A DNA stretch of 56,899 bases from an uncultured Lachnospiraceae bacterium. Its GTDB lineage: Bacteria; Bacillota; Clostridia; Lachnospirales; Lachnospiraceae. Position 1 is the stretch's first letter, and every line of letters starts with the position of its first letter. The notes below the pieces were generated by a model. It was not told where the DNA came from, did no database searches, and saw only the letters and a list, made by a program, of their open reading frames with translations. Shown piece by piece: positions 4,050 to 53,986 of the stretch. The DNA lies in contig CACZBW010000022.1 in NCBI GenBank assembly GCA_902779575.1, forward strand, positions 1 through 56,899, read 5' to 3'. The translations under genes and the position numbers were made by a program.

Positions 4050-6238
4050 TTCCCTCCCCCCTGGTCCAGCTGCTGTCTGGCCACCAGGTCGGCAAAGATT
4101 CCCTTCTTCTCGATCAGTTCATCGTACTTCCCGTCCTCGACGATCTTCCCGCCGTCCATGACCAGAATCCGGTCGCAGTGGCGTATGGTGGACAGGCGGT
4201 GAGCGATGACAATTCTGGTGCAGCGCATCCTGTCCAGCGCCTCGGACACCTGCTTCTGGGTGATATTGTCAAGAGCGGACGTAGCCTCATCAAGCAGGAG
4301 CAGGCGGGGTTTCGGGGCGATGGCCCGGGCGATCATCAGCCGCTGCTTCTGGCCGCCGGAGATTCCCCTTCCGCCTTCCTGCAGCACCGTGTGCATGCCC
4401 ATGGGCATGGCCCGGATATCGTCGGCGATGCCCGCCGTCTCCGCCGCTTCCCAGGCCTTCTGCAGGCTCAGGTTCGGGGCGGATATCGTGATGTTCTCGT
4501 AGATCGAGCCGCCGAACAGGTCTCCGTCCTGCATGACGGTTCCGATGCATTTGCGCAGGGAGCCGATATCCAGGGACTGAATATCCTTGCGGTCATAGAA
4601 GATAGCGCCCTTTTCCGGTTTTTCAAAGCCGAGGAGCAGACGGATCAGGGTCGATTTCCCGCAGCCGGTCTTGCCCACGATGGCCACATACTGGCGCGCC
4701 GGGATCGACAGGCTCATATCATCGAGGATCTTCCTCCCGTCCTTCTCATAGCGGAAGGTCACATGGGACAGCTCCACGCTGCCGCTGATCGAAGAGACCG
4801 CGTCCCTGCCCTCCTGTTTTTCCGGCTCCGCGTCCATCAGCGGGCGGATCATCTCCAGGCTGGGCTTCACCGTCGCGGCGGTCACCGCCACGGAAGAGAT
4901 CGCGGCGAAGGCGCCGGAAATATAGGCGTAGGCCGCGTTAAAGGCATAGTAATCCGCCACGGAGACATGGCTGCGCACCGCCACATAGTACATCACGATC
5001 GTACCGGTGAGGCTGATCGCGCTGCTCAGCACCGAATTGTATTTGAGCAGCAGCGGAGGCTTGTATTTCAGTTCCGATTCCCGGGTATACAGGTCCATCC
5101 ATTTTGAGAACACCCGGTTTTCGGCTCCGAAGAGGCGGATCTTCTCGATCCCGCCGATCAGCGCATAGGTCAGGCCCTTTTCTTTCGCGGACAGACCCAT
5201 CAGTTCCTTGTTCAGATCCGCCTGCAGGGCGTTGGCCGCCAGGCTCAGCGCCAGGGTCAGCAGGGTCACGATCAGGGACGGCAGCACCAGGCTGCGCGCA
5301 TAGGAGAAGATCTGCGTCAGATAGATCAGCGAGAACACACTGGTCAGCGCCGTGGAAAAGATCGAATCCACCAGCGTTGAGCAGAGGGTATTCATATAGG
5401 ACAGATACTGGCTCAGCTCACCGGAGCTGTACTCCTTGAAAAATCCCGCCGGCAGGGAGAGAACGCGCATCATGGCCGCCGCCTGCACGTTCACGTTCAG
5501 CTTGATGCGGATCCGGGCCAGGACCAGCTGGCGGATCACGGTCAGCAGAAAGCTTCCGACAATTGCGAAGAACATAAAGCTCACCACCGCGGCCAGCAGC
5601 CGGTCGCTCCGGTAGGCCACCACCTCGTCCATCAGGATGTGGTTGAGCTTCGGGATCAGCATGCCGACCAGGGTGATCATCAGGGCCGCCAGGGCAAAGG
5701 ACGCGATATCCCAGCCGCTTAAGCTGTCCCACATATAAGCGAAGAGATCCCTGAGGGTAATCTTCCGAAGCGGCAGGGGCCTGTAAAAACAGTAGGCCTC
5801 TCTGCTGATCTTCTTCTCCTCCGCCGCCGTCACCCGCACCCGGCGGCCGCTCGCGGGATCCGTATAGATATAGCGGCCCGCGGCGTTGCGGTGGATCGTG
5901 ATCACGGCGCCGCTGTCCTTCAGCACGCCGATCAGCGCGCCCATGCCGTCCCGGTGCCAGCCCTCCTCCAGTTCCACCTTCCGGTACATGATATTGGAAG
6001 AAGTCAGAAGGAAATCCAGCTGGGACTCCAGATCCTTCAGGCGGGCCGGAATCTCCTTCCCTTTGATCCCGAAATACTTCAGGAGCGCTTCCAACGCGTC
6101 GCTGATATCCGCCCCCTCAAGAAATGCTGACCCGGCCTTCTGCCCCGTCACCGAAAAGGCAAGCTTCTCAAAGGAATCAGAAAGCATCTTACGCTCATGC
6201 TTTTTCCGGTATTCGATCTGTTCGTCAAACCAACCCAT
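4046..6238 (-). CDS. NHLM-type peptide export ABC transporter, permease/ATP-binding protein
   Basis: A 730-residue half transporter. An N-terminal cytoplasmic region of about 165 residues lacks the C39 peptidase. A six-helix exporter permease (about 170-440) follows, and then a nucleotide-binding domain with Walker A IVGKTGCGKST, signature ISGGQKQR, and Walker B LLLLDEATSALD. Architecture and position next to a C39-containing partner match the NHLM bacteriocin-system ATP-binding protein, though it is shorter than many members. It likely forms a heterodimer with the product of 6268-8445 to export a modified peptide. It is 30 nt downstream of that gene and overlaps the zinc-ribbon gene by 4 nt. 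Confidence 0.88.
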   Translation of the reverse strand: MGWFDEQIEYRKKHERKMLSDSFEKLAFSVTGQKAGSAFLEGADISDALEALLKYFGIKGKEIPARLKDLESQLDFLLTSSNIMYRKVELEEGWHRDGMGALIGVLKDSGAVITIHRNAAGRYIYTDPASGRRVRVTAAEEKKISREAYCFYRPLPLRKITLRDLFAYMWDSLSGWDIASFALAALMITLVGMLIPKLNHILMDEVVAYRSDRLLAAVVSFMFFAIVGSFLLTVIRQLVLARIRIKLNVNVQAAAMMRVLSLPAGFFKEYSSGELSQYLSYMNTLCSTLVDSIFSTALTSVFSLIYLTQIFSYARSLVLPSLIVTLLTLALSLAANALQADLNKELMGLSAKEKGLTYALIGGIEKIRLFGAENRVFSKWMDLYTRESELKYKPPLLLKYNSVLSSAISLTGTIVMYYVAVRSHVSVADYYAFNAAYAYISGAFAAISSVAVTAATVKPSLEMIRPLMDAEPEKQEGRDAVSSISGSVELSHVTFRYEKDGRKILDDMSLSIPARQYVAIVGKTGCGKSTLIRLLLGFEKPEKGAIFYDRKDIQSLDIGSLRKCIGTVMQDGDLFGGSIYENITISAPNLSLQKAWEAAETAGIADDIRAMPMGMHTVLQEGGRGISGGQKQRLMIARAIAPKPRLLLLDEATSALDNITQKQVSEALDRMRCTRIVIAHRLSTIRHCDRILVMDGGKIVEDGKYDELIEKKGIFADLVARQQLDQGGGK

Positions 6239-6267
6239 CCTGCCTCCGGCTCCTCTTCTTTAAGTCC

Positions 6268-8445
6268 TTATTCATTGGTCACCAGCTCCGCATAGGCGCC
6301 GTTCTTTTCCATCAGTTCCTCATGGGTCCCCCGCTCCACGATATGGCCCCGGTCCATGACGATAATTTCATCGCAGTCCCGGATCGTGGATAGGCGGTGG
6401 GCAATCACGACGCAGGTGATGCCGCGCTCGCTGATGGAATGCACCACCTCAAACTCCGTCTTGGCGTCCAGGGCGGATGTAGCTTCATCGAGAATGCAGA
6501 TGGTGGGATCCGTGGCCAGGGCCCGGGCGATCTCGATCCTCTGCCGCTGTCCGCCGGAATAATCCCTTCCGTTCTCCGTCATCTTATGCAGATAGCCTCC
6601 CGGCCGCTGGACGATGTCCTCATGGATCCCGGCGTCGCGCGAAGCCATGATCATCTCGAAATTCTCGATGGAATCATCCCACATCTTGATATTCTCGGCC
6701 ACCGTATCCTCAAAGAGGGTCACCGTCTGGTCGATCACGGCCACCGAGCCGGTAAATACATTCCGGTCGATCTCCTGGATCGGCATGCCGTCATAGCTGA
6801 TCGTTCCGCTCCAGGCCTGGTTCAGGCCGGACAGGAGCTTGGCAACGGTAGATTTTCCGCAGCCCGATCTGCCGACGATGGCAACCTTCTGCCCGGGCTT
6901 CACGGTCATCGAGAAGTCCGTAATCAGTGGCGCGCCCAGGCGGGCATATCCGAAGCTGACATTCTTCATCTCGATATTGCCGCTGAGCTTCTCATAGTCT
7001 CCCGTCTTTTTCTTGGGCTCCAGATAGGGATCCGAGGGATAGCTCATCACATCGTCCACCCGCTCCATCTGGGTGACCATCTCCTGCAGGGACTGGCCGG
7101 TTGTAATGATGGAATTCGCCGGCGCCATAAAAGACTGGAGAAAGCCCTGGAAGGCCATCACCATACCGACGGTGAAAGAGCCGTGAAGCACCAGATAAAT
7201 TCCGCCCCCCAGCACCGCCAGGCTGGTGACGGAGGTCACCAGGGAGGGAATGGTGCTCAGCAGGGAATTTACACGGACATACTGGGTCTCCTGCCTGTTG
7301 ACGCTGGCCTGGAAGCCGGCCCAGCGCCCGAAGAAGCCCTTCTCCGCGCCGCTGGATTTGATGGTCTCGATCATGCGGACGCCGGAAGAGGTCGCCGCGG
7401 AAAGCTTCGCGGAATCCCGCATCTGCACCCTGGTAATATTGACCCGTTTTTCCGTCACCAGGGCGGAAACAAGCAGATTTACCGCGATAGCGGACAACCC
7501 GATCACCGTCAGCACCACACTGTAGCGGAGCATGACAATCAGGTAGAAGACCATCATCATCGTATTGATCGCCAGCGGCGCGAAGGTATTCACCAGGGTC
7601 CCCGCGATACTGGCATTGGTCGCCTGCCGGTCCGCGATGTCCGCCGCCAGCCTCTGCCCGAAGAAGGGCATCGGGAGGTGCAGCACCTTCCAGAGATAAG
7701 AGGTACTGCCGACCGCCTCCATCTTTCCCTGGATCCGCAGGCTGTACATCGCAGCGATCCACTGGACGATGATATTTACCACGGCAAAGCAGCTCAAAAA
7801 GAGAATAAAGGGCGTCAGCCAGTCCGGATTGCGCCCGCTCAGCAGGCGGTCCAGGAAGACCCGGCTGAACACCGGCAGGATAATCCCGAACAGGGAGGCG
7901 ATCGTCGTCGTCAGCACCACGAAGGTCACCGCCGCGGAAGTCCCCTTCAGGCGCTCCCTGGCGTAGGCAAAGACACTCTTCTTTTTTCCGGAGGGTTCAA
8001 AATCAGGTCCCGGCTCCACAGTGATCATAACCCCGGTGTATTCCTGGTCGAACTCCTCCATGGACACCTGCACGCGCCCGCGGGCAGGGTCGTTGAGCAC
8101 CGCCTTCCCCCTCCGGAAGCCGCAGAGCACCACGAAATGATTGAATCCCCAGTGGATGATGCAGGGAAATGGTCCCTCCTTGATCAGGTCCTCCGGCTCC
8201 ACCCGCCAGGCCTTCGCCTCCATGCCGTAGCTGCGCGCCGCCAGCATCAGGTTTTTCGCGTTTGCGCCGTCCCTGGACACGCCGCAGTCCACCCGGGCCT
8301 GCTCCAGCGGGATCCATTTCCGGTAATAATGCATGATCATGGTCAGGGAAGCGGCCCCGCACTCCAGCATCTCCAGCTGCATGGTCACAGGCACCCTCGC
8401 CACGCCGCTCGTTATGGGCTTTGGAATCTTACCTTCTTTCGCCAT
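6268..8445 (-). CDS. NHLM-type ABC exporter with C39 peptidase domain
   Basis: Counted from the ATG at 8445 (GAGG 8 nt upstream; a TTG at 8463 is possible), the protein has 725 residues. An N-terminal C39 cysteine protease carries Gln23, Cys29 (LECGAAS), His103 (GFNHFVVL) and Asp119 (LNDPARG). A six-helix permease follows, then an ATPase domain with GRSGCGKST, YSGGQRQR and LDEATSALD. Such proteins cut leader peptides, usually after a Gly-Gly or Gly-Ala pair, while exporting RiPPs or bacteriocins. All catalytic residues are intact. No NHLP or Nif11-type precursor is present next to the operon; the only visible precursor candidate is at 24448-24687. Confidence 0.92.
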   Translation of the reverse strand: MAKEGKIPKPITSGVARVPVTMQLEMLECGAASLTMIMHYYRKWIPLEQARVDCGVSRDGANAKNLMLAARSYGMEAKAWRVEPEDLIKEGPFPCIIHWGFNHFVVLCGFRRGKAVLNDPARGRVQVSMEEFDQEYTGVMITVEPGPDFEPSGKKKSVFAYARERLKGTSAAVTFVVLTTTIASLFGIILPVFSRVFLDRLLSGRNPDWLTPFILFLSCFAVVNIIVQWIAAMYSLRIQGKMEAVGSTSYLWKVLHLPMPFFGQRLAADIADRQATNASIAGTLVNTFAPLAINTMMMVFYLIVMLRYSVVLTVIGLSAIAVNLLVSALVTEKRVNITRVQMRDSAKLSAATSSGVRMIETIKSSGAEKGFFGRWAGFQASVNRQETQYVRVNSLLSTIPSLVTSVTSLAVLGGGIYLVLHGSFTVGMVMAFQGFLQSFMAPANSIITTGQSLQEMVTQMERVDDVMSYPSDPYLEPKKKTGDYEKLSGNIEMKNVSFGYARLGAPLITDFSMTVKPGQKVAIVGRSGCGKSTVAKLLSGLNQAWSGTISYDGMPIQEIDRNVFTGSVAVIDQTVTLFEDTVAENIKMWDDSIENFEMIMASRDAGIHEDIVQRPGGYLHKMTENGRDYSGGQRQRIEIARALATDPTICILDEATSALDAKTEFEVVHSISERGITCVVIAHRLSTIRDCDEIIVMDRGHIVERGTHEELMEKNGAYAELVTNE

Positions 8446-8459
8446 AGATGAAACCTCGA

Positions 8460-8951
8460 TCAATTAAAGAAAAGCGACATGGGAGACATGGTCTCCGTCA
8501 GCAGCTGTCCGGTATATACGCCGCTCTCCAGAGGCTGAGCCAGGGGGATGGGATAGACGACGTCCCCCACGGACAGGCCGCCGGCCAGTATGACATAAAC
8601 GTCCATATCCGTGGAAACCACCTGGGGCTCCAGAACGGAAGGCGCCAGCTCAAGATCCTGTCCGTCCACCGTCACCTGCTTATAGCGGAGCACGCCCTGC
8701 AGAGCGGAGGCCGGAACATAACACACAGTCTCTCCTTCCCCTCCTACCACAGCCGCGGAGCTGGTCGCGCGGATGGTACCGAACACGCCCCAGATGCACA
8801 CGCCGGCCAGAAGGGCGATCACTGTCCCCAGCAGCAGCCAGACCCCGGGGGAAGTCACCCGGAGATAGTCATTGAGCTTCTCCGGCGATTCCATCCGTTC
8901 GATATTTTTCTCCCTGAACAGACCTTTTTTCTTTTCCGTATTTTCTGCCAT
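8460..8951 (-). CDS. short HlyD-like (NHLP system) secretion accessory protein
   Basis: A 163-residue protein with a conserved N-terminal stretch (LFREKNIERMESPEKLNDYL), one membrane helix (about 40-60) and a short extracytoplasmic part. The N-terminus matches NHLP bacteriocin-system membrane-fusion proteins, but the long coiled-coil and lipoyl parts of a typical HlyD are missing. It therefore resembles a minimal adaptor rather than a full fusion protein. Its stop codon lies 15 nt before the start of the C39 ABC exporter gene, so the genes are cotranscribed. Confidence 0.75.
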   Translation of the reverse strand: MAENTEKKKGLFREKNIERMESPEKLNDYLRVTSPGVWLLLGTVIALLAGVCIWGVFGTIRATSSAAVVGGEGETVCYVPASALQGVLRYKQVTVDGQDLELAPSVLEPQVVSTDMDVYVILAGGLSVGDVVYPIPLAQPLESGVYTGQLLTETMSPMSLFFN

Positions 8952-8996
8952 GATCTTCCCTGCTTTCTTAAAAGTCCCTCTCCGGCTCCCCCGGCT

Positions 8997-21871: not shown

Positions 21872-22144
21872 TCACGGAGTCGTTTCCGTTGCAAAAGAAA
21901 TATCCTTCAGAAATTCCATAATATCTTTTTTAACTGTCTCTTCATCGGCATCTTCAAAACGCTCCATGGCCAAAACCGCAAGACTGTCGAAAGTCGTTCC
22001 TTTTTCCAACTCTCTCCAATAGAAAGCAGCAGACTCATTCAGCGTAAGCATTCCCCTGAACTGCTCAGCTGCAGTTCCAACAGGGATGACCATATATTCT
22101 TCTCCGATTTTCTGCAGAATATAGTTCTTCTTAGTCTTTATCAT
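21872..22144 (-). CDS. PqqD-family peptide chaperone (RiPP recognition element)
   Basis: A 90-residue PqqD-like protein: ILQKIGEEYMVIPVGTAAEQ, then a helical part with LNESAAFYWRELEKG and a C-terminal helix. PqqD proteins fold as winged helices that bind RiPP leader peptides and present them to radical SAM enzymes. The gene is last of the cassette precursor-rSAM-HPrK-PqqD and starts 9 nt after the HPrK-like gene (AGGGA upstream of ATG 22144). The family is confident; that the partner is the adjacent precursor is inferred from gene order. Confidence 0.88.
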   Translation of the reverse strand: MIKTKKNYILQKIGEEYMVIPVGTAAEQFRGMLTLNESAAFYWRELEKGTTFDSLAVLAMERFEDADEETVKKDIMEFLKDISFATETTP

Positions 22145-22153
22145 AACATATCC

Positions 22154-23002
22154 CTATATATTGATATCCTGCCTGATCCGGTTCCAGATCTTCAACGGAT
22201 CCTCGCCATCTTCGATGCAGCATTTCAGCAGATAACACGGTATCTGACCGATCAAGGTATTAATCAATCCAGCAAGACGCTTCAGATCTGCAGCATTATC
22301 CGGAATTAACAGATGATCAAAGATCCTGTGTGATATCTCTTCTGTCTGCAGCCGCCGAATCTCCACCCGCGTACTTCTTTCCACAAAGCAGAGAACCTTC
22401 AGCGGAACCATACAGTTACTGTCGCGGTTTTCCTTTCCATTCCACGGAGTTCCGCATGCATACAATGTACCATCAAGCAGGCGTATGACCGGTTTATCTC
22501 CATTGATGACTGCCGCACTCTTCCCGAAAGCATCTTCCCAAAGCCTTAACCGGGTACTTTTCCCTGCGCCGTGTTTTCCCACAAACGCAATCCCCGCTCC
22601 GTTTATTGCTATGACAGCAGCATGCAGTACAAAAGCATCGAAATTTATAAGCTTCCGGCAGATCTGTCTGTAAACGTTCAGTTCCTCCAGATAGCTCCAG
22701 GTTTCGAGCGGAATTACAGGTTTTTTCCCTCCGCACGAAATAATCTTTTCCCGGTATTCCTGTTCATCAGATGGTGGTTTTTCCACCTGCAGGGCTTTTT
22801 TCAGTTCTTCTGCTTCAGCCGCGGTCAGATCCCGGGACCAACTCAGAATACCTCTTAATTCATCTATGAGCATCTTATCTGATGCCCTTACAGTGAAAGC
22901 AGGATCCCCGCTTTCTATCTGATAGTTTCTGCAAAGCCATCCTACCGGTGCGTATCGATTATCCACACCGATCGGGACGCCGGCAAGCCTGATAAAAAAC
23001 AT
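22154..23002 (-). CDS. HPr kinase-like P-loop protein of the RiPP cassette
   Basis: A 282-residue protein with FVLHAAVIAINGAGIAF, a P-loop GKHGAGKST (residues 142-150), VINGDKPVIRLLDG and GTPWNGKEN, the HprK/P catalytic fold. It lacks the N-terminal domain of true HPr kinases. HPrK-like enzymes in RiPP loci can phosphorylate the precursor, as PadeK does on a C-terminal serine in the paeninodin pathway. The precursor here ends with Ser/Thr residues (DPTESI), so a similar role is plausible but unproven. The ATG follows the radical SAM stop codon directly (TAGATG). Confidence 0.85.
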   Translation of the reverse strand: MFFIRLAGVPIGVDNRYAPVGWLCRNYQIESGDPAFTVRASDKMLIDELRGILSWSRDLTAAEAEELKKALQVEKPPSDEQEYREKIISCGGKKPVIPLETWSYLEELNVYRQICRKLINFDAFVLHAAVIAINGAGIAFVGKHGAGKSTRLRLWEDAFGKSAAVINGDKPVIRLLDGTLYACGTPWNGKENRDSNCMVPLKVLCFVERSTRVEIRRLQTEEISHRIFDHLLIPDNAADLKRLAGLINTLIGQIPCYLLKCCIEDGEDPLKIWNRIRQDINI

Positions 23003-24448
23003 CTATTCTGAATCCTCTGGTCTGTCTGATCCCTGCAGAGCCTCTTCCGCGGCAGCTCTGATCCGTTCCGCGTATCCTTCCTTCCAGAGCATACACATCA
23101 TCCGGTCTGTTCCATACATCTCGCCTTCGCTTATAAAAGCATGCGCCCTGCAGCCCCCGCAGCATCTCAGAACATACGTACAATCTGCGCACTCCCTGTT
23201 TTCTCTCATCAGATCCTTAACACGGCTGTCAATGAACGTCATGTAGTAATTATTTCCCTTTAATGCATTTTTGAGGCCATCTTTCAGTAGGTCCGGAAAC
23301 ATACTCAAGTCATGGACAGAGGCGATTGGCATACAGGGAAGAACATGCCCGTCAGGAGAAATATATGCCGTAGTTCTTATTGCTCCACACAAATATAATC
23401 CTTTACTGCTGATTTCTCCGTCTCCATATTCTGCAAGAAGCTTATACCGAACACCGGTTTTCTCCGCCTCCTTTTTTGTGTACAGATCGATCGCGCTGGA
23501 AAGCATAAGGTGAACCGATGTATCTGAGTTTATGTACTCCGGTATGAATTTAATTACCTCTTCCAGATATTCCTCTTGTTCCAGAAGATTTCCATCGGAA
23601 TGACGGACCCATAATTCTGTTTTGGAAACATTGGATGCTTTGACATAGGTGACCCCAACAGCTTCAAGAGCCTGGAGCGTATCCATCAGGCCGGACACAT
23701 TCCCGCGGTAAATACACATCTCAACATTCGTCGGAACGCCTTTTTCGCGGCACAGCTTTAAGGCTCTCAGGGTCTGCTCCTCAGCGCCTTTCTGTCCACG
23801 CATCCAGTCATGCCAGTGCAGGCCATCAAAGCTCATGCTGAAAAAAGGATGAAGACCTCTCTCTGTAAATGAATTCAGGAGATCTTCATTTACCAGCCAT
23901 CCGTTTGTATAGATTTGGGTGATATGGATTTTCTTTTTCAGAAGCCTGTCCACGATATCCCAGAAGTCGGAACGAACAAGCGGCTCTCCTCCTGTCAGCT
24001 CAACAGAATGAATGCCGCAGGCAGCAATCTGATCAATAATATCGAAGCACTCCTCTGTGCTCAGGGATCCATCTCTGCCCGCGGGGGCATCCAGGTAACA
24101 ATGCCTGCACCGGAAGTTGCAGTGACCTGTAATCGACCACAGGATCCCCGGAATATATCTGCAGTCATAATAGCGGTACCGTTGGGCCGGCGCGATCGGA
24201 TCGGGATTCTGACTTTCCAGGATAATTCCTTCCTGCAGAAATCCGTCAATCATCTGCTGCATTTCCTTTGTTCGCAGCTCATCCGAAATTGCTGTTTCGC
24301 CATTGCACAGCAGAAGACATTGGAATTCCTCAAAACTTAACGCTCTGATTTTTCCGGATGATAAAAACAAAAGCACTCCCGTAAGCTTTTCCCAGCCCCG
24401 GAGTGCACAGTCATTTTTTAATCTGTAATATTGCATCTTCTTAGCCAT
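23003..24448 (-). CDS. radical SAM/SPASM peptide-modifying enzyme
   Basis: The protein has 481 residues. The N-terminal 95 may contain a PqqD-like leader-binding domain. The radical SAM motif is GHCNFRCRHCYLD (Cys110, Cys114, Cys117), with GGEPL about 50 residues later. The SPASM region holds LCGAIRTTAYISPDGHVLPC and CADCTYVLRCCGGCRAHAF, ligands for auxiliary Fe-S clusters. Such enzymes make thioether or C-C bonds in RiPPs. The gene starts one base inside the precursor stop (TAATG), so the two are tightly coupled. Chemistry cannot be told from sequence alone; Cys-rich precursor favours thioether formation (ranthipeptide or sactipeptide type). Confidence 0.92.
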   Translation of the reverse strand: MAKKMQYYRLKNDCALRGWEKLTGVLLFLSSGKIRALSFEEFQCLLLCNGETAISDELRTKEMQQMIDGFLQEGIILESQNPDPIAPAQRYRYYDCRYIPGILWSITGHCNFRCRHCYLDAPAGRDGSLSTEECFDIIDQIAACGIHSVELTGGEPLVRSDFWDIVDRLLKKKIHITQIYTNGWLVNEDLLNSFTERGLHPFFSMSFDGLHWHDWMRGQKGAEEQTLRALKLCREKGVPTNVEMCIYRGNVSGLMDTLQALEAVGVTYVKASNVSKTELWVRHSDGNLLEQEEYLEEVIKFIPEYINSDTSVHLMLSSAIDLYTKKEAEKTGVRYKLLAEYGDGEISSKGLYLCGAIRTTAYISPDGHVLPCMPIASVHDLSMFPDLLKDGLKNALKGNNYYMTFIDSRVKDLMRENRECADCTYVLRCCGGCRAHAFISEGEMYGTDRMMCMLWKEGYAERIRAAAEEALQGSDRPEDSE

Positions 24449-44738: not shown

Positions 44739-44843
44739 GAATTGACACGCAGCGTCAGTGTTTTTAATTAATTGAATTGACTCACAGCGTCAGTGTTTTT
44801 ATTAAAAGGAACTGATTCGCAGCGTCAGTATTGCTAAGCAAAA
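44739..44843 (+). promoter_or_regulatory. three 35-bp direct repeats carrying tandem promoter-like elements
   Basis: The repeat core GACACGCAGCGTCAGTGTTT occurs with period 35. TTGACA (44742-44747) with a 17-bp spacer and TAATTA (44765-44770) form the first element; TTGACT (44777-44782), 17 bp, TATTAA (44800-44805) the second; the third begins CTGATT (44812) and is degenerate. The AGCGTCAGT core sits in the spacer each time, a plausible operator. The array ends at the ribosome site of the gene starting at 44855. Confidence 0.7.
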
Positions 44844-44854
44844 AGGAGCTGACT

Positions 44855-45802
44855 ATGATTCTCGCGTTATATGGTGCCGGGGCGATGGGCCGTGAATTCA
44901 GGCAGATCGCGGAGGAAAGCGGACAATGGTCCGGAGTCGTTTATATTGACGATCACGCAAAAGCAGAGGAGCTGGGCGGTTGCCAGGTTTACAGGTTCCA
45001 GGTCTTTCGCAGACAATTTACCCCGGATGAGGTACGTTTTGTCGTATCCATCGGGGAACCGAAGTTCCGCCTGGAGGCATTTGAAAATATGACGCGGGCA
45101 GGATATTCCGCCGGCGTTCTAGTTGATAAAAACGCCCGGATCAGCCCGGATGCCGAAATCGGGGAAGGCACGGCGGTCTGCGGCGGTGCCTTTATCGGTT
45201 CGCAGGCCAGAGTCGGAAGCAACTGCTACATCTCGAGAAATGCTTCCGTGGGCCATGACGCTGTGATCGGCGATCATACCCGTCTGGGCGTTAATTCTTT
45301 TATCGGCGGGCATACCGAGATTGGCGAAAATGCTTTTATCGGCGCCGGCGCTATGCTGCGTGACCGCATTCATGTCGGCGCCGGCAGCATTGCCGCGCTG
45401 GGATCTGTCGTGTTTGAGGATGTACCGGACAATGTCACGGTGATCGGTAATCCTGCCCGGATATCCGGGGACGGTACGCAATCCGCCGTCTACGCGCCCA
45501 GCAAAGCCCTGGAGGCCGAACAGAAAGCCGGACAGGATGCCGCGAAGAGCATTCCGGAACTTTACTGGGAGGTGTTCACCAGCTGCTTCGAAGGGGTGGA
45601 CTTCAACCCGGTTACCTATCGCTATCAGGATGAGGGTTGGAATTCCCTGGCCCAGATGATGCTGATCAGCCGGCTGGAGGAGACCTTCCATGTTTCCATA
45701 AAAGGCCGGGAGGCCATGCGGCTGAAATCCTACGGCGCCGGGCTCACGATGATTAAGAGCAAGCTGGAACAGAAAGAGAAAGAGAAGGTGAATGAAGCAT
45801 GA
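44855..45802 (+). CDS. NeuD/PglD-like acyltransferase fused to an acyl carrier protein
   Basis: 315 residues from ATG 44855 (AAGGAG 6 nt upstream). Residues 1-75 form a Rossmann-type PglD_N domain (LALYGAGAMGREF). Residues about 85-210 are a left-handed beta helix with hexapeptide repeats (IGEGTAVCGGAFIGSQARVG), ending VIGNPARI, as in NeuD sugar O/N-acetyltransferases. The last about 80 residues look like an acyl carrier protein: EGWNSLAQMMLISRLEETF, where the serine of WNSLA is the likely phosphopantetheine site. The stop overlaps the next gene (ATGA), an AMP-forming ligase that could load this carrier. The fusion implies acyl transfer from a carrier-bound acid to an amino sugar (inference). 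Confidence 0.8.
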   Translation: MILALYGAGAMGREFRQIAEESGQWSGVVYIDDHAKAEELGGCQVYRFQVFRRQFTPDEVRFVVSIGEPKFRLEAFENMTRAGYSAGVLVDKNARISPDAEIGEGTAVCGGAFIGSQARVGSNCYISRNASVGHDAVIGDHTRLGVNSFIGGHTEIGENAFIGAGAMLRDRIHVGAGSIAALGSVVFEDVPDNVTVIGNPARISGDGTQSAVYAPSKALEAEQKAGQDAAKSIPELYWEVFTSCFEGVDFNPVTYRYQDEGWNSLAQMMLISRLEETFHVSIKGREAMRLKSYGAGLTMIKSKLEQKEKEKVNEA

Positions 45803-47211
45803 ACAGGATTTGGGATTTCGGCGCATTCGGCAAAAAAGAAGCGCTGACCGATGATACCGGCTTCTCCCTGCGCTACGACGAGCTTCTGGCGCTTCAGAAT
45901 CAGCTTGCGGAGACAGAAGGCGCCGGAGAGCTGACCATGATGCTCTGCGAAAACAGCATCGGCGCTCTGGCAGGATACGCCGCCCTGTTAAACAGCGGGC
46001 ATCCGATGCTGCTGGTGTCGGCGGAGCTGGCGGAAGATATGCGCAGGCAGATCATGAACACCTACCGCCCCGGACTTGTTTTCGCGCCGGCGGCGCTGCG
46101 GGCGGATTACGCGCACATGCGGGAGCTTCTTTCGATCGACCGCTATACCCTCTTCCGGACAAATTACGCGGATCTGTACCCGGTCAATCCGGACCTCGGC
46201 CAGATGCTGACCACCTCCGGTTCCACAGGTTCCGTCAAATTCGTCCGGCAGACCTGGGAAAACGTCCGGCATAATTCCCGGCTTCTTGCAGACGCCCTGC
46301 TGATGACCGGGTCGGAGAGAAACATCACTTCCCTGCCGCTGAACTATACCTACGGTATTTCTCTTTTCTGTGCGAGCCTGCTGAAAGGGTCGGCAACGAT
46401 TGTGACCCGGAAGGGCATCATGGACGAGGAATTCTGGGACCTGTTCGAAAATGAACACATTACCGCATTCCACGGCGTCCCGAACACCTACGACATGCTT
46501 CTGCAGCTGGGCATTTTCGAAGAGGATTTCCCGGATCTCAAAGTACTGTCGCAGGCAGGCGGCAAACTGAGCAAGGACCTTCACCGCAGTATTGCGCAGT
46601 ATGCCGGCGAACATAACAAGCAGTTTGTCGTCATGTACGGGCAGTGCGAAGCCACCTCCTGCATCAGCCTTCTGCCTCCTCAGAAAGCCCTTGAGAAAAC
46701 CGGTTCTGTGGGAGTCGCCTTCCCGGGCGGGGAGATTGAGCTGCATGACGAGAATGGAAATCGGATTACAGAACCTCATGTTCCCGGAGAACTGATCTAC
46801 CGAGGCAAAAATGTGGCGCTCGGCTATGCGGCCGGCGGCGAAGACCTGATCCGGGGAGATGACTGGCACGGCGAACTCCATACCGGCGATCTTGCCGAGA
46901 CGGATGAGGACGGCTTCCTCTATATCACCGGCAGGCTTAAACGCTTTATCAAGATTTCCGGCTCCCGGATCAGCCTTGATGAAATCGACAGCAGGATTAT
47001 GAATGACCTTCACATCCGCAGCGTGAGTTCAGGCGTGGATGACAATCTGGTTGTTTTTGTCCTGAGCGATGAGGATAAAGACGCTGTCCTGAAATACCTC
47101 AGGCAGAAATTCACCGCCATTCGCACCGCCCTCCGGGTGAAAAAGATTGACGCATTTCCGCTCAACGAATCAGGGAAAATCCTCTACGGAGCCCTGCAGA
47201 AGATGATATGA
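45799..47211 (+). CDS. AMP-forming acyl/aryl ligase (ANL superfamily)
   Basis: A 470-residue adenylating enzyme: the P-loop-like TTSGSTGSVKFVRQTWENV, VMYGQCEATS, HTGDLAETDEDGFLYITGR with LKRFIKISG, and the C-terminal lysine in NESGKILYGAL. It is shorter than most acyl-CoA synthetases and belongs to the group that loads stand-alone carrier proteins. Translationally coupled to the NeuD-ACP gene, so its likely task is to activate an acid and transfer it to that carrier. The acid is unknown. Confidence 0.88.
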   Translation: MNRIWDFGAFGKKEALTDDTGFSLRYDELLALQNQLAETEGAGELTMMLCENSIGALAGYAALLNSGHPMLLVSAELAEDMRRQIMNTYRPGLVFAPAALRADYAHMRELLSIDRYTLFRTNYADLYPVNPDLGQMLTTSGSTGSVKFVRQTWENVRHNSRLLADALLMTGSERNITSLPLNYTYGISLFCASLLKGSATIVTRKGIMDEEFWDLFENEHITAFHGVPNTYDMLLQLGIFEEDFPDLKVLSQAGGKLSKDLHRSIAQYAGEHNKQFVVMYGQCEATSCISLLPPQKALEKTGSVGVAFPGGEIELHDENGNRITEPHVPGELIYRGKNVALGYAAGGEDLIRGDDWHGELHTGDLAETDEDGFLYITGRLKRFIKISGSRISLDEIDSRIMNDLHIRSVSSGVDDNLVVFVLSDEDKDAVLKYLRQKFTAIRTALRVKKIDAFPLNESGKILYGALQKMI

Positions 47212-49630: not shown

Positions 49631-49718
49631 TACTCATCCTTCATGGCTTCTGACCCGTAAACGACCTTCATGAATACTCATCCTTCATGACTTCTGACCC
49701 GTACGCGGCCTTCATGAA
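49631..49718. repeat. 44-bp tandem duplication at a gene end
   Basis: Two copies of TACTCATCCTTCATG-CTTCTGACCCGTA start at 49631 and 49675. The second copy contains the stop codon and last codons of the Cys-tail membrane protein. Confidence 0.85.
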
Positions 49719-50913
49719 TACTCCGCTTAAAGAAATCTTTTACAGTACACCCGGCGCGCCCTGAAGATGCGCAGGCGCAGGCGCAGGCACAGGAAGACGC
49801 GCAGGCGCAGGAGGATGCACAGGAGGACGCGCAGGAGGAATGATGGGAGCCGCCGGAAGAACGGGTATGTGTTCTCGAACTCGGCGTACTGACCACATTC
49901 ACAAATATAAATGTATTCGGAGAATTGCCGTAGCGGTATGTTCCGTTCTTTGTATATTTCTCAGGGTTTTCAATCTCGCTTTCTTCCACTACTTCCTTTT
50001 TCTTTATCATGCTGCGTCCGCAGTAGGGACAGCTGTCTTTTCCTTCCTCACGCGGGGCTCCGCAGTTCGGGCAGTTCGGATAGTATTCGATCATGGTGCG
50101 GGTAATTTTTTTGCCCTCCCGGTCGGATCCGAAGCCGGCGCCTCCGGCGAACCATTTGACAAATTTTACTATGATAATAACCGGAACCACGAAACATCCC
50201 AGTCCGATGATGATGGCAAGTACGGCAACAAATATGCCTGAAGCGCTGAAGCCTTCGCTCTCGCCGCTGTCTCCGCCGCCTCCGCTTCCCGCGGCCTGCC
50301 GCTCAGGCACAAAGCCGAAGGTATCATTCGGATATGTGACAGAGATCGTATATCTGTCGCCCTGCGAAAGCGATGTTTCAAATACCAGGTACCCATCGTC
50401 CTCATAGCAGTCCGGCTGCCAGGCCCCGGCATCTTCCGCGTTCCAGCGGATGGTGAGCGAGTCGACCTCCATGCTGTCAAACCAGGCGGGCGTGAAGGTA
50501 TAAACCGTCTCCCCCTCCACCCATTTATCGATCTGATACATATGGTCCTGGGTCATGGAGAAATCAACGCTGACGGTCTCGCCTTCCTCGTATGACTGGT
50601 CAAGATAGATATTCAGCGAACTGCCCTTATCTTCAATATGATCGATCGTGTCGCTCAGCGGGGTGATGTTCTCGTGGTACCTGTTCGGCACGCCCAGGTC
50701 AATCCATTCCAGTTCGCCGACCGAGTCATCCAGTACTTCCCAGTCAATGTGATAAAGCATGTTAAGGGAAGCGTCTTCATTGACATCCACTGTGATCGTG
50801 AAATCCAGGATCTCATCCGTCGGATCGGCCAGGACCGGAATAGCCGGAATGCCGGTGAGGAGCAGCAAAATGCACGGAAGATATCTGTATGGCCTCATTT
50901 TAAAATCTTTCAC
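49678..50913 (-). CDS. exported zinc-ribbon membrane protein with nine-cysteine Cys/Ala/Ser tail
   Basis: The start is GTG 50913, with AGGAGG upstream, overlapping the radical SAM stop (GTGA). The 411-residue product has a signal peptide (residues 6-28, ending VLADP), a beta-rich extracytoplasmic region (DUF2207-like), a membrane helix (about 225-255), a zinc ribbon CPNCGAP...CPYCGRS, and a C-terminal region rich in Ser/His. The tail (residues 361-389) has nine cysteines spaced as CASSCASSCACASSC then ACACACASSGRAGC. Repetitive Cys tails coupled to a radical SAM/SPASM enzyme suggest that this tail is the substrate for thioether or similar crosslinks. This is inference; the tail and the coupling are seen directly. 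Confidence 0.8.
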   Translation of the reverse strand: MKDFKMRPYRYLPCILLLLTGIPAIPVLADPTDEILDFTITVDVNEDASLNMLYHIDWEVLDDSVGELEWIDLGVPNRYHENITPLSDTIDHIEDKGSSLNIYLDQSYEEGETVSVDFSMTQDHMYQIDKWVEGETVYTFTPAWFDSMEVDSLTIRWNAEDAGAWQPDCYEDDGYLVFETSLSQGDRYTISVTYPNDTFGFVPERQAAGSGGGGDSGESEGFSASGIFVAVLAIIIGLGCFVVPVIIIVKFVKWFAGGAGFGSDREGKKITRTMIEYYPNCPNCGAPREEGKDSCPYCGRSMIKKKEVVEESEIENPEKYTKNGTYRYGNSPNTFIFVNVVSTPSSRTHTRSSGGSHHSSCASSCASSCACASSCACACACASSGRAGCTVKDFFKRSIHEGRVRVRSHEG

Positions 50914-52310
50914 TGACAGCACCTCCTTAAGGGACACTCGCCCGTCATCTGGGATGAATAATTTCTCTGCGCAGTGCATACTTCGCTTTCCCAGATCGCG
51001 TTCCAGTCATCGCGAAGCATGTTCCCCAGCGGCTGATCAGACAGCCAGCTCTGACACGGAACCACATTTCCGCCGGGAGTGACGGCCATGTTGGAAAGAC
51101 ACGCGCCGCAGGATGGCGACGGGATATTCAGTTCCTCAAAAACAGGCTCTTTAATCCAGCCCGGAGAGGTGAATGCGATCTCCATGCCGTGTTCGCCGCA
51201 GTAGCTGACTGCCTCGCGCAGGATCTCTTCCAGCTGATCCCCTGACAGCTGCAGGCGCGCGGATTCTTCCCCTGCAGCGTTTCCGGTTGTGATCATGCCG
51301 GAGCAGGTCACATAGATGACGCCTTTCTCATGAAGGAATTCCAGCGTCTTCACATAGTCCCTGTTCAGGGTGCAGAGCGGCGTATTGATACTGACGGACA
51401 GGCCCTCCGCCAGGGCGTTCTCAATGCCGCTGACCGTACTGCTGTACTGGGGAGCGCCGACAAGCCGGTTGTGGATCTCCGGATCCTTCGAATAAAATGT
51501 GATCTGTACGCTGTCCAGCTCAGCCTTGCGCAGCGTACGGCAGTATTCCTTTGTAAGACGGATTCCGTTTGTGTTCAGTCTGGAAACAAACCATCTGGCG
51601 TCCCGGATCAGTTCGGGAAGATCGTCCCGCATGGTTGGCTCGCCGCCGGTAAATGTCACCTGCGGGATGCCGGCCTCACGGCATTTCGCCAGAATCTTCT
51701 TCCAGTCACCGGTCGAAAGCTCTTCCTCATCCGACAGCATCTGTCCGGCAGCGTAACAATGGACACATTTCTGATTGCAGTTCCATTTTCCTTTCTTTGT
51801 CATGGCGCTCACCATCAGATCCATGCGGTGCGGCGCATTCATGTACTGGGCATATTCTCCCAGGCTCATATAATTCACGTCGGTCGTGACTTCTTCCCGG
51901 TAAGCGATCTGCCGCATCGTCTCATAGATCGTCCGGATATCTTCCCGGATCCGCTTATTGGAATAGACCGGCATGATCTTCCTGACATTTTTCGCAGTAT
52001 TTTCAAGGATCGACTGAATCTGGTCCTCGCCGATCTCCCTGCCGTCGTATTTATTTGTCTCGCGGATCATCTCTGCCAGGATCACAGCCCAGGCAAAATT
52101 GACCGGTACGACGTCGCTGCCGTTGATGATGGCAACGCTTGGATTCAGGGTGTTCTCCTCCTTCTTCGGCGGGATCAGATGAATCCTGATAGCGCCGGGA
52201 CCGTTGGGATTCAGCGTCGTGTGCAGGACTTCGTCAAAGACGGTGTCCATATAGGAATTGATCCGCTGTACGGATCGGGTCTTTCTGAATAATGCGGGTA
52301 CATAAGCCAT
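50910..52310 (-). CDS. radical SAM/SPASM enzyme coupled to the Cys-tail protein
   Basis: A 466-residue enzyme. Residues about 35-115 may form a PqqD-like recognition domain. The cluster motif is WNCNQKCVHCYAAG (Cys178, Cys182, Cys185), followed by VTFTGGEPTMRDDLPELI. The SPASM region has CGACLSNMAVTPGGNVVPC and a Cys-rich end (CPLRRCCQ). A perfect ribosome site and a promoter (52335-52363) precede it. The downstream membrane-protein gene overlaps its stop by 4 nt. SPASM enzymes mature peptides or protein side chains; the adjacent nine-Cys tail is the obvious candidate. Confidence 0.92.
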   Translation of the reverse strand: MAYVPALFRKTRSVQRINSYMDTVFDEVLHTTLNPNGPGAIRIHLIPPKKEENTLNPSVAIINGSDVVPVNFAWAVILAEMIRETNKYDGREIGEDQIQSILENTAKNVRKIMPVYSNKRIREDIRTIYETMRQIAYREEVTTDVNYMSLGEYAQYMNAPHRMDLMVSAMTKKGKWNCNQKCVHCYAAGQMLSDEEELSTGDWKKILAKCREAGIPQVTFTGGEPTMRDDLPELIRDARWFVSRLNTNGIRLTKEYCRTLRKAELDSVQITFYSKDPEIHNRLVGAPQYSSTVSGIENALAEGLSVSINTPLCTLNRDYVKTLEFLHEKGVIYVTCSGMITTGNAAGEESARLQLSGDQLEEILREAVSYCGEHGMEIAFTSPGWIKEPVFEELNIPSPSCGACLSNMAVTPGGNVVPCQSWLSDQPLGNMLRDDWNAIWESEVCTAQRNYSSQMTGECPLRRCCQ

Positions 52311-52459: not shown

Positions 52460-52843
52460 TTATCTGTAGACCAGATTCGGCAGGAACATGGTTACCTGCG
52501 GAATAAATGCGATAATCAGGATCACCGTTAACATGGTGATGTAGAAAGGTACCGCCTCCCGGGCCGTTTCCTGCGGTTTACATCCCATGATCTCCGATGT
52601 CGTGTACAGGGCGATGCCTACCGGCGGAGTCATAATCCCTCCGGTAACCACGGTCATCATCAGCACGCCGAAATGGACCGGTTCCACCCCGACACTCTGC
52701 ACGACCGGCAGAAGGATCGGTGTCATCAGAAGCGCGACAACAGTGGTTTCCACGAACATCCCTGCAAAAGTAAGCAGAAGAATGATCAGAAGAAGCATGA
52801 TGTAACGATTCCCGGTAACGCCCACCAGAGAGCGACCGTCCAT
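52460..52843 (-). pseudogene. TRAP transporter large permease (DctM), C-terminal fragment
   Basis: The 127 residues have the DctM features YIMLLLIILLLTFAGMFVET, MTPILLPVVQSVGVEPVHFG and GIMTPPVGIALYTTSEI. A full DctM has about 430 residues; the N-terminal two thirds and the DctP/DctQ partners are absent. It starts just after the double GNAT gene. No function is expected. Confidence 0.85.
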
Positions 52844-52870: not shown

Positions 52871-53986
52871 TCACATATCCGAACCGGTTGAAATCCAGTA
52901 ACGCCGGAGCCTGCCGCATCTGCTCAATCCCACTGTGTCTTCGATCTCATTTTCCAGGACGCCGCCATTCTTCAGAATGGTTTTTTCTGACGCAGTATTA
53001 TCGCTGTCACAAGTAAGCAGAACCCGCTTTTCTCCATAAATACGGCATAGATCAAGCATCAGCCGAAGCATCTCGGAAGCATATCCTTTCCGACGCTCGG
53101 AAGGCCGGATGCTGTACCCGATGTTCCCGCCGAAATTCATAAGAAAGTCGGTGAGGGGATGCCGGTAATCGATGATTCCAACCAGACGGTCATCCGTCTC
53201 CCTGACTGCCAGAAAGACTTCGGAGGGAACATAGCCTTCTTTGTACTTAACTCTCAGACGGTCCCCGAATCGAATCCACTCCTCAAAGGAAGCACAGTCT
53301 TCCAGACCGGCACATCCATCGAATTCATCTCCATTCTGCTTTAATTCATCCCGGAAGTCCATTACCTGCCCGGAATATCGGCTTCCAGGCCGGCACAATG
53401 AGATTTTTGCCGGTTCAATACCAGGATCCTGCATTCGCAGTTCGGCGCCTGCGGGTCTGCGGCAGAGGTTCCTGGAAAGAAACAGAACAAGATCATCATC
53501 ATTTGCGATTTCCGTTTCATACTGTGCACAGGCTTTATCCCGGTACCAGACGCCCGTTCCATCCGGGATATAGCCTCGTTTGACATACATTCGCTGTGCG
53601 CTTCCATAACCGCTGTGGAGGCCGACGCCAAGCCAGACCGTATCGGCATACTGCCCGGCAAGCTGTTCAGCGGCGTCCATCAGTCTGCTGCCGATCCCCC
53701 TCCTCCGGTATTTTTCCAGTACGCCAAAATCAACGATCTCCGGCAATCCTTTGCCGCCGAATGGACCGCCGGAAGGGGTAATATAGATATTAACATACCC
53801 GGCAGGGGCCCCTCTATATACAGCAGTCAGGGAAATACATATTCCCTCGGACTGGTCTTTAAGCCTTGTCAGAAATTTGGAGATATCCGTGTGCCAGCCC
53901 TGTTTTATCTCTTCATCAGTAAAGATCCGGGCATCTGCTTCTTCCATATTTCGGATCATCAGTTCGTTATCAATGTAATAAACCAT
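52871..53986 (-). CDS. double GNAT-domain acetyltransferase
   Basis: A 371-residue protein with two GNAT domains. The first (residues 1-160) has VDFGVLEKYRRRGIGSRLMD and YVKRGYIPDG; the second (about 195-365) has IGYSIRPSERRKGYASEMLR and a KTILKNGGV end. Both acetyl-CoA loops look intact. Substrates are unknown; tandem GNATs occur in aminoglycoside- and peptide-modifying enzymes. AAGGGAG precedes ATG 53986. Confidence 0.85.
   Translation of the reverse strand: MVYYIDNELMIRNMEEADARIFTDEEIKQGWHTDISKFLTRLKDQSEGICISLTAVYRGAPAGYVNIYITPSGGPFGGKGLPEIVDFGVLEKYRRRGIGSRLMDAAEQLAGQYADTVWLGVGLHSGYGSAQRMYVKRGYIPDGTGVWYRDKACAQYETEIANDDDLVLFLSRNLCRRPAGAELRMQDPGIEPAKISLCRPGSRYSGQVMDFRDELKQNGDEFDGCAGLEDCASFEEWIRFGDRLRVKYKEGYVPSEVFLAVRETDDRLVGIIDYRHPLTDFLMNFGGNIGYSIRPSERRKGYASEMLRLMLDLCRIYGEKRVLLTCDSDNTASEKTILKNGGVLENEIEDTVGLSRCGRLRRYWISTGSDM

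Follow-up and report, generated by a model that had tools for sequence, protein, structure and literature searches.

A radical SAM enzyme gene paired with a gene for a membrane protein that ends in a Cys-Ala repeat: a proposed protein-maturation unit

Why would a membrane protein end in a run of cysteines and alanines, and why would its gene lie beside a gene for a radical S-adenosylmethionine (SAM) enzyme? The question is raised by a 56,899-nucleotide stretch of DNA from an uncultured Lachnospiraceae bacterium (contig CACZBW010000022.1 of GenBank assembly GCA_902779575.1), which we will call the window. An earlier note on this DNA, made from its letters alone, had suggested that the enzyme crosslinks the tail. 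We found that the two genes form a dedicated pair, and we propose that the tail is very probably the enzyme's substrate. This is the best reading because of the pairing, the fixed Cys/Ala pattern, the access that the enzyme would have to the tail in the cytosol, and the enzymes that are nearest to this one.

A dedicated pair of genes

50910-52310, minus strand: gene for a radical SAM/Twitch enzyme of 466 amino acids (open reading frame (ORF), Pfam matches and congeners)
49678-50898, minus strand: gene for the tail-bearing membrane protein, 406 amino acids from the ATG at 50898 (ORF and relatives)
49747-49833, minus strand: cysteine tail CASSCASSCACASSCACACACASSGRAGC, residues 356-384, the proposed substrate (translation and relatives)

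Both genes are real, as the earlier note said; they lie on the minus strand, and the membrane gene directly follows the enzyme gene. Translation also confirms that the window's tail, HSSCASSCASSCACASSCACACACASSGRAGC, has nine cysteines with the spacing that was described. A GTGA overlap between the genes had been proposed as well. This is possible if translation begins at the in-frame GTG at 50913, which overlaps the TGA of the enzyme gene, but the ATG at 50898 is the likely start.

Among 61 genomes (the window's own and 60 relatives), the membrane protein had a strong match in 3, and the enzyme was found in the same 3. (A fourth, weak match, in L004 with E = 7.5e-4, is to a different protein that shares a zinc ribbon.) Within the genus, the pair is present in 2 of 18 other genomes, with an enzyme that is 72% identical in both, and neither gene was found in the remaining 16 at the thresholds used; several of these genomes are incomplete.

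Across 392 genomes from the order, a profile of the membrane protein (A1) had matches in 10. All nine besides the window have the enzyme gene directly upstream and a tail of the form (CA)n-GGGRAGC-xxKDFY. (As to individual matches of this profile, L019 is the same gene as L014, and L018 is a weak partial match.) When we searched these 392 genomes with a profile made from just the tail (A7, 25 rows), 12 matches resulted, and the 10 strong ones (E of 1.6e-9 or better) were in exactly the genomes that the membrane-protein profile had found, all beside the enzyme. With E up to 0.01 allowed, the window's genome has a single tail. Tails without the enzyme, which the earlier note had named as evidence against its idea, were not seen: none of the 10 genomes with a convincing tail lacks an adjoining enzyme gene. 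The marginal tail-only matches, L133 (E = 0.002) and L134 (E = 0.009), have no such tail in an ORF, and we took them to be due to chance.

We used the enzyme alignment to scan 84,980 species genomes and obtained at least 586 pattern matches and at least 509 relatives. The loci that we refer to by name are the best 80 of these 509 or more, at 60-82% identity, and represent the nearest part of the family. By the titles of their records, most belong to Lachnospiraceae and were sampled from ruminant or other guts. All but one of the 80 are metagenome-assembled genomes or "uncultured"; the exception is Sarcina sp. DSM 11001 (L040). A gene with a GRAGC tail lies directly downstream of the enzyme gene, on the same strand, in 72 of the 80 loci. 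The other 8 (L024, L027, L035, L043, L044, L073, L082 and L084) reach the end of the contig 327-1256 bases past the enzyme gene; in 7 of them, the membrane gene can be seen close to the contig edge, and L082 is too short to tell. These family searches support the claims that the enzyme and the tail are a dedicated pair and that the tail is part of a large membrane protein and not a free peptide. The genes are often close together: in 57 of the 72 loci, the first in-frame start codon opens 1-8 bases short of where the enzyme's stop codon ends (by a mechanical tally, whose full range was 8 bases before to 120 bases after).

Does the unit have other members? We clustered the 574 flanking ORFs of at least 90 amino acids from the 80 loci. 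The commonest family was present at 8 loci (its example is a cut copy of the membrane protein) and the next at 7. Because no flanking family recurs beyond 8 of the 80 loci, we consider the unit to be two genes. Among these ORFs we found no third conserved gene and no conserved family of exporters or proteases. We also considered that the pair might be carried by mobile elements. A search for plasmid carriage gave no match at E = 1e-30, and a scan of viral contigs gave 13 remote radical SAM relatives only (23-34% identity); we set the idea aside on these searches.

Conservation of the tail and its descent with the enzyme

49747-49791, minus strand: invariant core CACACACA-xx-GRAGC, residues 370-384 (tail alignments)
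49729-49740, minus strand: K-D-F-F after the core, residues 387-390 (tail alignment)

Three congeners share all 32 residues from H353 to C384, although their entire proteins are just 60-61% identical, so the conservation of the tail is not due to chance. We aligned 87 tails from 84 distinct genomes (L012 = L077, L016 = L101, and the window = L100 are repeats). Across the 84 distinct tails, CACACACA and GRAGC are fixed save for one tyrosine (in L104). The lysine after the core is present in all 87 rows and is followed by D or E, then F (85 of 87 rows), and then F or Y. This conserved K-D-F-F is a possible recognition motif, and it differs in the far groups that are described below.

The DNA that encodes the core is far more variable than the peptide. 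All four alanine codons and both cysteine codons are used across the aligned tails. The 72 named loci have 72 distinct DNA sequences for the core, which encode two peptides (44 with SS and 28 with GG). At the 13 core positions of CACACACA-(SS/GG)-GRAGC, which leave out the SS/GG pair, we counted 0 nonsynonymous and 18,822 synonymous pairwise codon differences among the 72 genes. We also compared regions of the protein, using 63 of the 72 genes (the anchor motif is absent from L029, L049, L051, L053, L068, L071, L078, L087 and L090). For codon pairs, the fraction that encodes different amino acids was 0.50 in the outward domain, 0.73 in the transmembrane (TM) helix plus linker, 0.39 from the zinc ribbon to the tail, 0.36 in the outer tail, 0.06 in the core (this is the SS/GG pair) and 0.59 after the core; because codon pairs are not independent, all of these figures are contrasts rather than probabilities. 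On this codon evidence, the tail is under selection at the protein level.

Repetition is plain to see in the tail's DNA, so one might ask if the Cys-Ala run is a functionless repeat that arose by slippage. However, the encoding of two peptides by 72 distinct DNA cores refutes an origin by slippage or chance, and the pairing persists across the phylum. We give this explanation next to no credence.

We also considered that the tail might not be a substrate at all. It might instead be an unmodified ligand for a metal or an Fe-S cluster, a membrane dock, or an electron donor, while the enzyme acts elsewhere. CxC spacing and a zinc ribbon would suit metal binding. However, there is no other conserved gene or peptide of at least 90 amino acids nearby, and a ligand or a dock leaves the invariant alanines and the fixed GRAGC unexplained. 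This explanation seems quite unlikely, and we favor modification of the tail.

To reach more distant relatives, we compared an enzyme profile to 391 genomes from the class (E up to 1e-80) and 398 genomes from the phylum. The class search gave 10 matches: the window, G170 (which is L016), and 8 new relatives. Five of the eight (L103, L106, L109, L111 and L112) have complete tails; L105 breaks off partway through a visible tail, and L102 and L110 break off ahead of it. The phylum search gave the window and 10 other matches. Eight of these have complete tails, L122 breaks off within a visible tail, and L118 is both masked and truncated. Overall, the 18 far relatives include 13 with complete (often variant) tails, 2 with partial tails and 3 that are untestable, and none of the 18 has a complete partner without a tail. 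In L109 and L111, the tail is CACACACACA-(G/V)GGRVGC-SERGYQ, and the eight complete tails from the phylum search are of the form GC(A/Y/H)CVSCACACVSCACACACA-GG(G/R)GAGC-xxKF.

These variants bear on the possibility of other chemistry on the tail: carbon-carbon links, alpha,beta-desaturation, or attachment at residues of K-D-F-[FY] or GRAGC. Both of these motifs are conserved together with the repeat, and folds of varied chemistry (similar to TigE, SuiB and anSME) are near the enzyme. However, K-D-F-[FY] is lost in the far groups (SERGYQ or xxKF) while the Cys-Ala repeat is kept. We doubt that such chemistry is the answer.

Some of the far loci have unusual arrangements. L112 (G655:C13:105000-117000) has two tandem tail genes upstream of one enzyme gene, and one of the two tails has a tyrosine in place of one core cysteine. 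In L111, a transposase-like pair of ORFs (5528-7267, plus strand) lies between the enzyme gene (7571-8953, minus strand) and the tail gene (4660-5451, minus strand), and the 5' part of the tail gene is outside the open frame. The pair is not contiguous there because an insertion sequence sits between the genes, and we view this locus as an insertion-split copy of the unit (span 4660-8953). At 4346-5346, L110 has a related membrane protein whose Pro- and Gly-rich C-terminus runs to the end of the contig.

To see how the tail types are distributed, we placed them on a quick tree of 93 enzymes (L012 was removed as a duplicate): 44 are SS, 39 are GG, 8 are GGAGC and 2 are RVGC. The tail type changes 4 times on the tree, where the minimum is 3; shuffling gave a mean of 37.8 changes, and 0 of 200 shuffles were as low, although near-copies inflate this contrast. 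L080 is an exception, with an SS tail within the GG part of the tree. On this tree, tail type tracks the enzyme, which shows joint descent of the two proteins, not contact between them.

Domains of the two proteins

50329-50826, minus strand: outward beta-sandwich domain, about residues 25-190 (AlphaFold2; weak similarity to DUF2207 in relatives)
50146-50244, minus strand: TM helix, residues 219-251 in the model (hydropathy and model)
50020-50073, minus strand: zinc ribbon CxxC...CxxC, residues 276-293 (sub-threshold Pfam match; absent in L014-L017)

The earlier note called the membrane protein exported. A hydrophobic segment at the N-terminus, together with one TM helix that is followed by positive charge, places the tail in the cytosol, not outside. 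In the 63 genes, there is usually one N-terminal hydrophobic segment and one later segment (58 of 63; the other 5 have two later segments). The net charge after the TM helix is above that before it in 60 of 63, with means of +4.3 versus -5.4. Because positive charge follows the TM helix, we expect the tail to lie in the cytosol.

The zinc ribbon was also part of the original description. It leads the membrane protein's Pfam matches, all of which are sub-threshold, with 22.6 bits against a cut-off of 25. Its four cysteines (276, 279, 290 and 293) are nevertheless invariant in 39 aligned relatives. However, L014-L017 have lost it and retain the outward domain, the TM helix and the tail. Because it is gone in these proteins while the tail persists, we ruled out the zinc ribbon as the key part of the protein.

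AlphaFold2 modeled the outward beta-sandwich with confidence (blocks of residues 31-200 have a pLDDT of 91-98), and it also modeled a small cytosolic domain with the zinc ribbon; tail blocks had values of 30-52. The model's fold matches are to M1 aminopeptidases and to subunits of oligosaccharyltransferase (presumably ribophorin I), with TM-scores by the query of 0.24-0.34, and we take these to reflect a shared beta-sandwich. A sequence search of the PDB gave nothing convincing for the membrane protein (the best match, at E = 0.069, is a zinc finger), and no NCBIfam model was over its cut-off. DUF2207 (PF09972) matches 24 of the 39 relatives at E up to 1, with a best E of 0.0013. It scores 15 bits in L106, under the gathering cut-off of 24.4, and no match to it is listed in the Pfam scan of the window's protein. 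The outward domain thus appears to be remotely DUF2207-like, and the tail and the enzyme partner fall outside the DUF2207 model.

51756-51779, minus strand: CxxxCxxC with Cys 178, 182 and 185 (residues 178-185), for the SAM-binding 4Fe-4S cluster (100% in 95 aligned rows)
50934-51110, minus strand: auxiliary-cluster (Twitch-like) region with Cys 401, 404, 419 and 459 (Pfam SPASM; common to four tail groups)
51903-52229, minus strand: N-terminal domain of the enzyme, residues 28-136, strands and then three helices (AlphaFold2 model)

The enzyme belongs to Pfam's Radical_SAM family (74.1 bits, cut-off 29.5) and SPASM family (27.2 bits, cut-off 21.5). It had been described as a SPASM enzyme, and the Pfam score agrees, but its C-terminal Fe-S domain has the look of a Twitch domain and not of a full SPASM. 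In the alignment of 95 enzymes from the four tail groups, Cys 178, 182, 185, 336, 401, 419 and 459 are present in every row, and Cys 404 is present in 95-100%. Cys 336, which is invariant across all four groups, lies at the end of a barrel strand in the model. A second set of C-terminal cysteines, for a second auxiliary cluster (Aux II), is absent from the window's group in this alignment. So the enzymes of the window's group seem to be Twitch-like and to have a single auxiliary cluster. In this they resemble SkfB, which has an N-terminal domain, the SAM cluster and one auxiliary cluster (excerpt of PMC6231123). The GGAGC group has three extra C-terminal cysteine columns at 88-100% (0-3% in the other groups), and by these columns its enzymes seem to resemble a full SPASM.

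The AlphaFold2 model of the enzyme (from 36 sequences) has a mean pLDDT of 81.6 and a pTM of 0.83. By sequence, the matches in the PDB are, in order, SkfB (E = 3.3e-17), GDGT-MAS, PqqE, BtrN, MoaA, 5wgg (which we take to be CteB) and SuiB (5v1q). By fold, using Foldseek, SkfB is the best match, and SuiB, BlsE, anSME (rank 8), MoaA and TigE are within the first 14. No NCBIfam model is over its cut-off among the 25 of 55 matches listed for the enzyme, and no QhpD or anSME model is among them. In the structural model, the N-terminal domain is a possible substrate-docking domain, similar to the recognition elements (RREs) of pathways for ribosomally synthesized and post-translationally modified peptides (RiPPs). 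The hints come only from the order of its elements and from long whole-length alignments to the RiPP maturases SkfB and SuiB; by profile, as described below, the domain does not match PqqD.

The proposed modification and its relation to known systems

As an explanation of the whole, we think that a two-gene maturation unit is rather probable. We propose that the partner is a type I membrane protein, with a beta-sandwich facing outward, one TM helix, a cytosolic zinc ribbon or a Gly/Ser-rich linker, and a disordered cytosolic tail, (CA)n-xx-GRAGC, at its end. The radical SAM/Twitch enzyme, itself cytosolic, would bind this tail, with its N-terminal domain and the auxiliary cluster as candidate docking sites. 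A 5'-deoxyadenosyl radical would then abstract hydrogen from residues of the repeat, most likely alanine and the neighboring serine or glycine, and cysteine thiols would join the activated carbons to give several thioether rings within the tail.

That the product is thioether crosslinks is, judging from the class of enzyme and the Cys/Ala sequence, about an even bet. Thioethers are our first choice because the nearest enzyme by both sequence and fold makes links from cysteine sulfur to carbon, and the substrate is rich in cysteine. There is a precedent for alanine as the acceptor in RumC1 (excerpt of PMC8172795).

Several observations weigh against this proposal. According to the same excerpt, AlbA refuses alanine in place of its acceptors (PMC8172795). 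The enzyme scores far under the NCBIfam cut-offs for skfB (48.9 of 300 bits) and StsB (45.9 of 625 bits), and the models for MoaA and NirJ2 outscore the sactipeptide-maturase models that are listed. The fold TM-scores by query length are modest (0.35-0.54 among the 50 matches listed), which we think stems partly from the orientation of the domains. Comparing the N-terminal domain to PqqD with hhalign (13 PqqD sequences) gave a probability of just 0.5%. The pair is also patchy, being present in 3 of 61 close genomes. Finally, the 80 named loci represent the near family because the 429 lower-ranked relatives fall outside the set.

The strict alternation and Cys 336 make epimerization our second choice. 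Here, the alanines (or cysteines) of the repeat would become D-residues. L and D residues would then alternate along the tail, its mass would stay the same, and its thiols would be free for metal or redox roles. The invariant Cys 336 could donate the hydrogen atom, and EpeE, an epimerase, comes at rank 50 of the fold matches. This is far below SkfB and SuiB, however, and nothing about the CASSC segments or the fixed cysteines (as opposed to a general alternation of small residues) requires an epimerase. We consider it unlikely and continue to prefer thioethers.

More broadly, one enzyme might work along the (Cys-Ala)n repeat to make either a thioether ladder (cysteine sulfur to alanine carbons) or an alternating L/D helix. 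This would be a membrane-anchored covalent scaffold, coupled through the TM helix to an outward beta-sandwich that serves as a sensor or ligand domain, in several classes of one phylum. We put this forward tentatively, as somewhat less than an even prospect. We know of no counterpart for a ribosomally made, membrane-anchored covalent scaffold. As for its role, our guess is that the finished tail is a rigid, redox-proof or metal-binding module in the cytosol that is coupled to the outward domain.

How does this compare to known systems? The sactipeptide maturases SkfB, AlbA and CteB share the radical SAM core, the N-terminal domain, the Twitch/SPASM cluster and a cysteine-bearing substrate with the pair. 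However, they act on short secreted peptides, whereas the proposed substrate of this enzyme is the terminal part of a membrane protein of about 400 amino acids. Nor does the pair fit the usual description of a RiPP pathway, which has a short precursor with a leader and a core; at the loci that we read, the partner is instead a membrane protein of roughly 400 residues. RiPP mining mostly seeks short precursor peptides beside radical SAM enzymes. The tail would escape such searches because it is the end of a 400-residue membrane protein. Proteins with CACACACAGGGRAGC tails are, we believe with some uncertainty, present in database entries, and we know of no paper on CACACACAGGGRAGC tails. In the open-licence literature, we recognized no paper that describes this pair, and a published account may exist.

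QhpD forms thioethers in a protein subunit rather than in a free peptide (excerpt of PMC8172795), as we propose here. It acts on the small subunit of a dehydrogenase complex, where the links are dispersed, and not on the Cys-Ala tail of a membrane protein (as compared by description). Another SPASM enzyme that acts on a protein is anSME, which modifies one sulfatase residue. It has two auxiliary clusters (excerpt of PMC6231123), while the window's group has one and would face a tail with many cysteines; we compared these by description and fold. Radical SAM pathways for repeat peptides, such as TvgB with TVGG repeats or those for Asp-Cys repeat peptides (excerpt of PMC9062424), likewise confront a single enzyme with a short motif that recurs, X-Cys dipeptides among them. 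Their substrates are free peptides with their own clusters, unlike the tail of a membrane protein, and neither a Cys-Ala repeat nor a membrane-protein substrate is mentioned in that excerpt of PMC9062424. TIGR04133 (rSAM_w_lipo) is, by its name, another radical SAM/SPASM protein that is paired with an envelope protein, but the window's enzyme is not a member (75.4 bits, cut-off 425).

If our proposal is correct, radical SAM maturation extends from peptides and soluble enzymes to membrane proteins, and this would be a new route by which anaerobic bacteria complete a membrane protein. For learning the enzyme's chemistry, the fixed Cys-Ala repeat offers an unusually clean substrate with many sites, and one carrier of the pair, Sarcina sp. 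DSM 11001, has a culture-collection number.

The window also contains a second, unrelated-looking radical SAM cassette (21872-24448, minus strand). It encodes a radical SAM/SPASM protein of 481 amino acids (23003-24448), a protein of 282 amino acids with a P-loop-like GKHGAGKST (22154-23002), and a PqqD-family protein of 90 amino acids (21872-22144; PF05402, E = 1.9e-11). The window's two radical SAM enzymes align around the SAM motif only. Upstream of the pair, a 127-amino-acid ORF (52460-52843, minus strand) matches the last quarter of DctM only (302-412 of 413 in the profile) and is probably, by this partial match, the remnant of a TRAP transporter. It adjoins a gene with two GNAT domains (52871-53986). 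On the other side, adjacent ORFs at 44831-47211 (plus strand) look, by eye, like a NeuD-like acyltransferase with a carrier-protein domain and an AMP-forming ligase.

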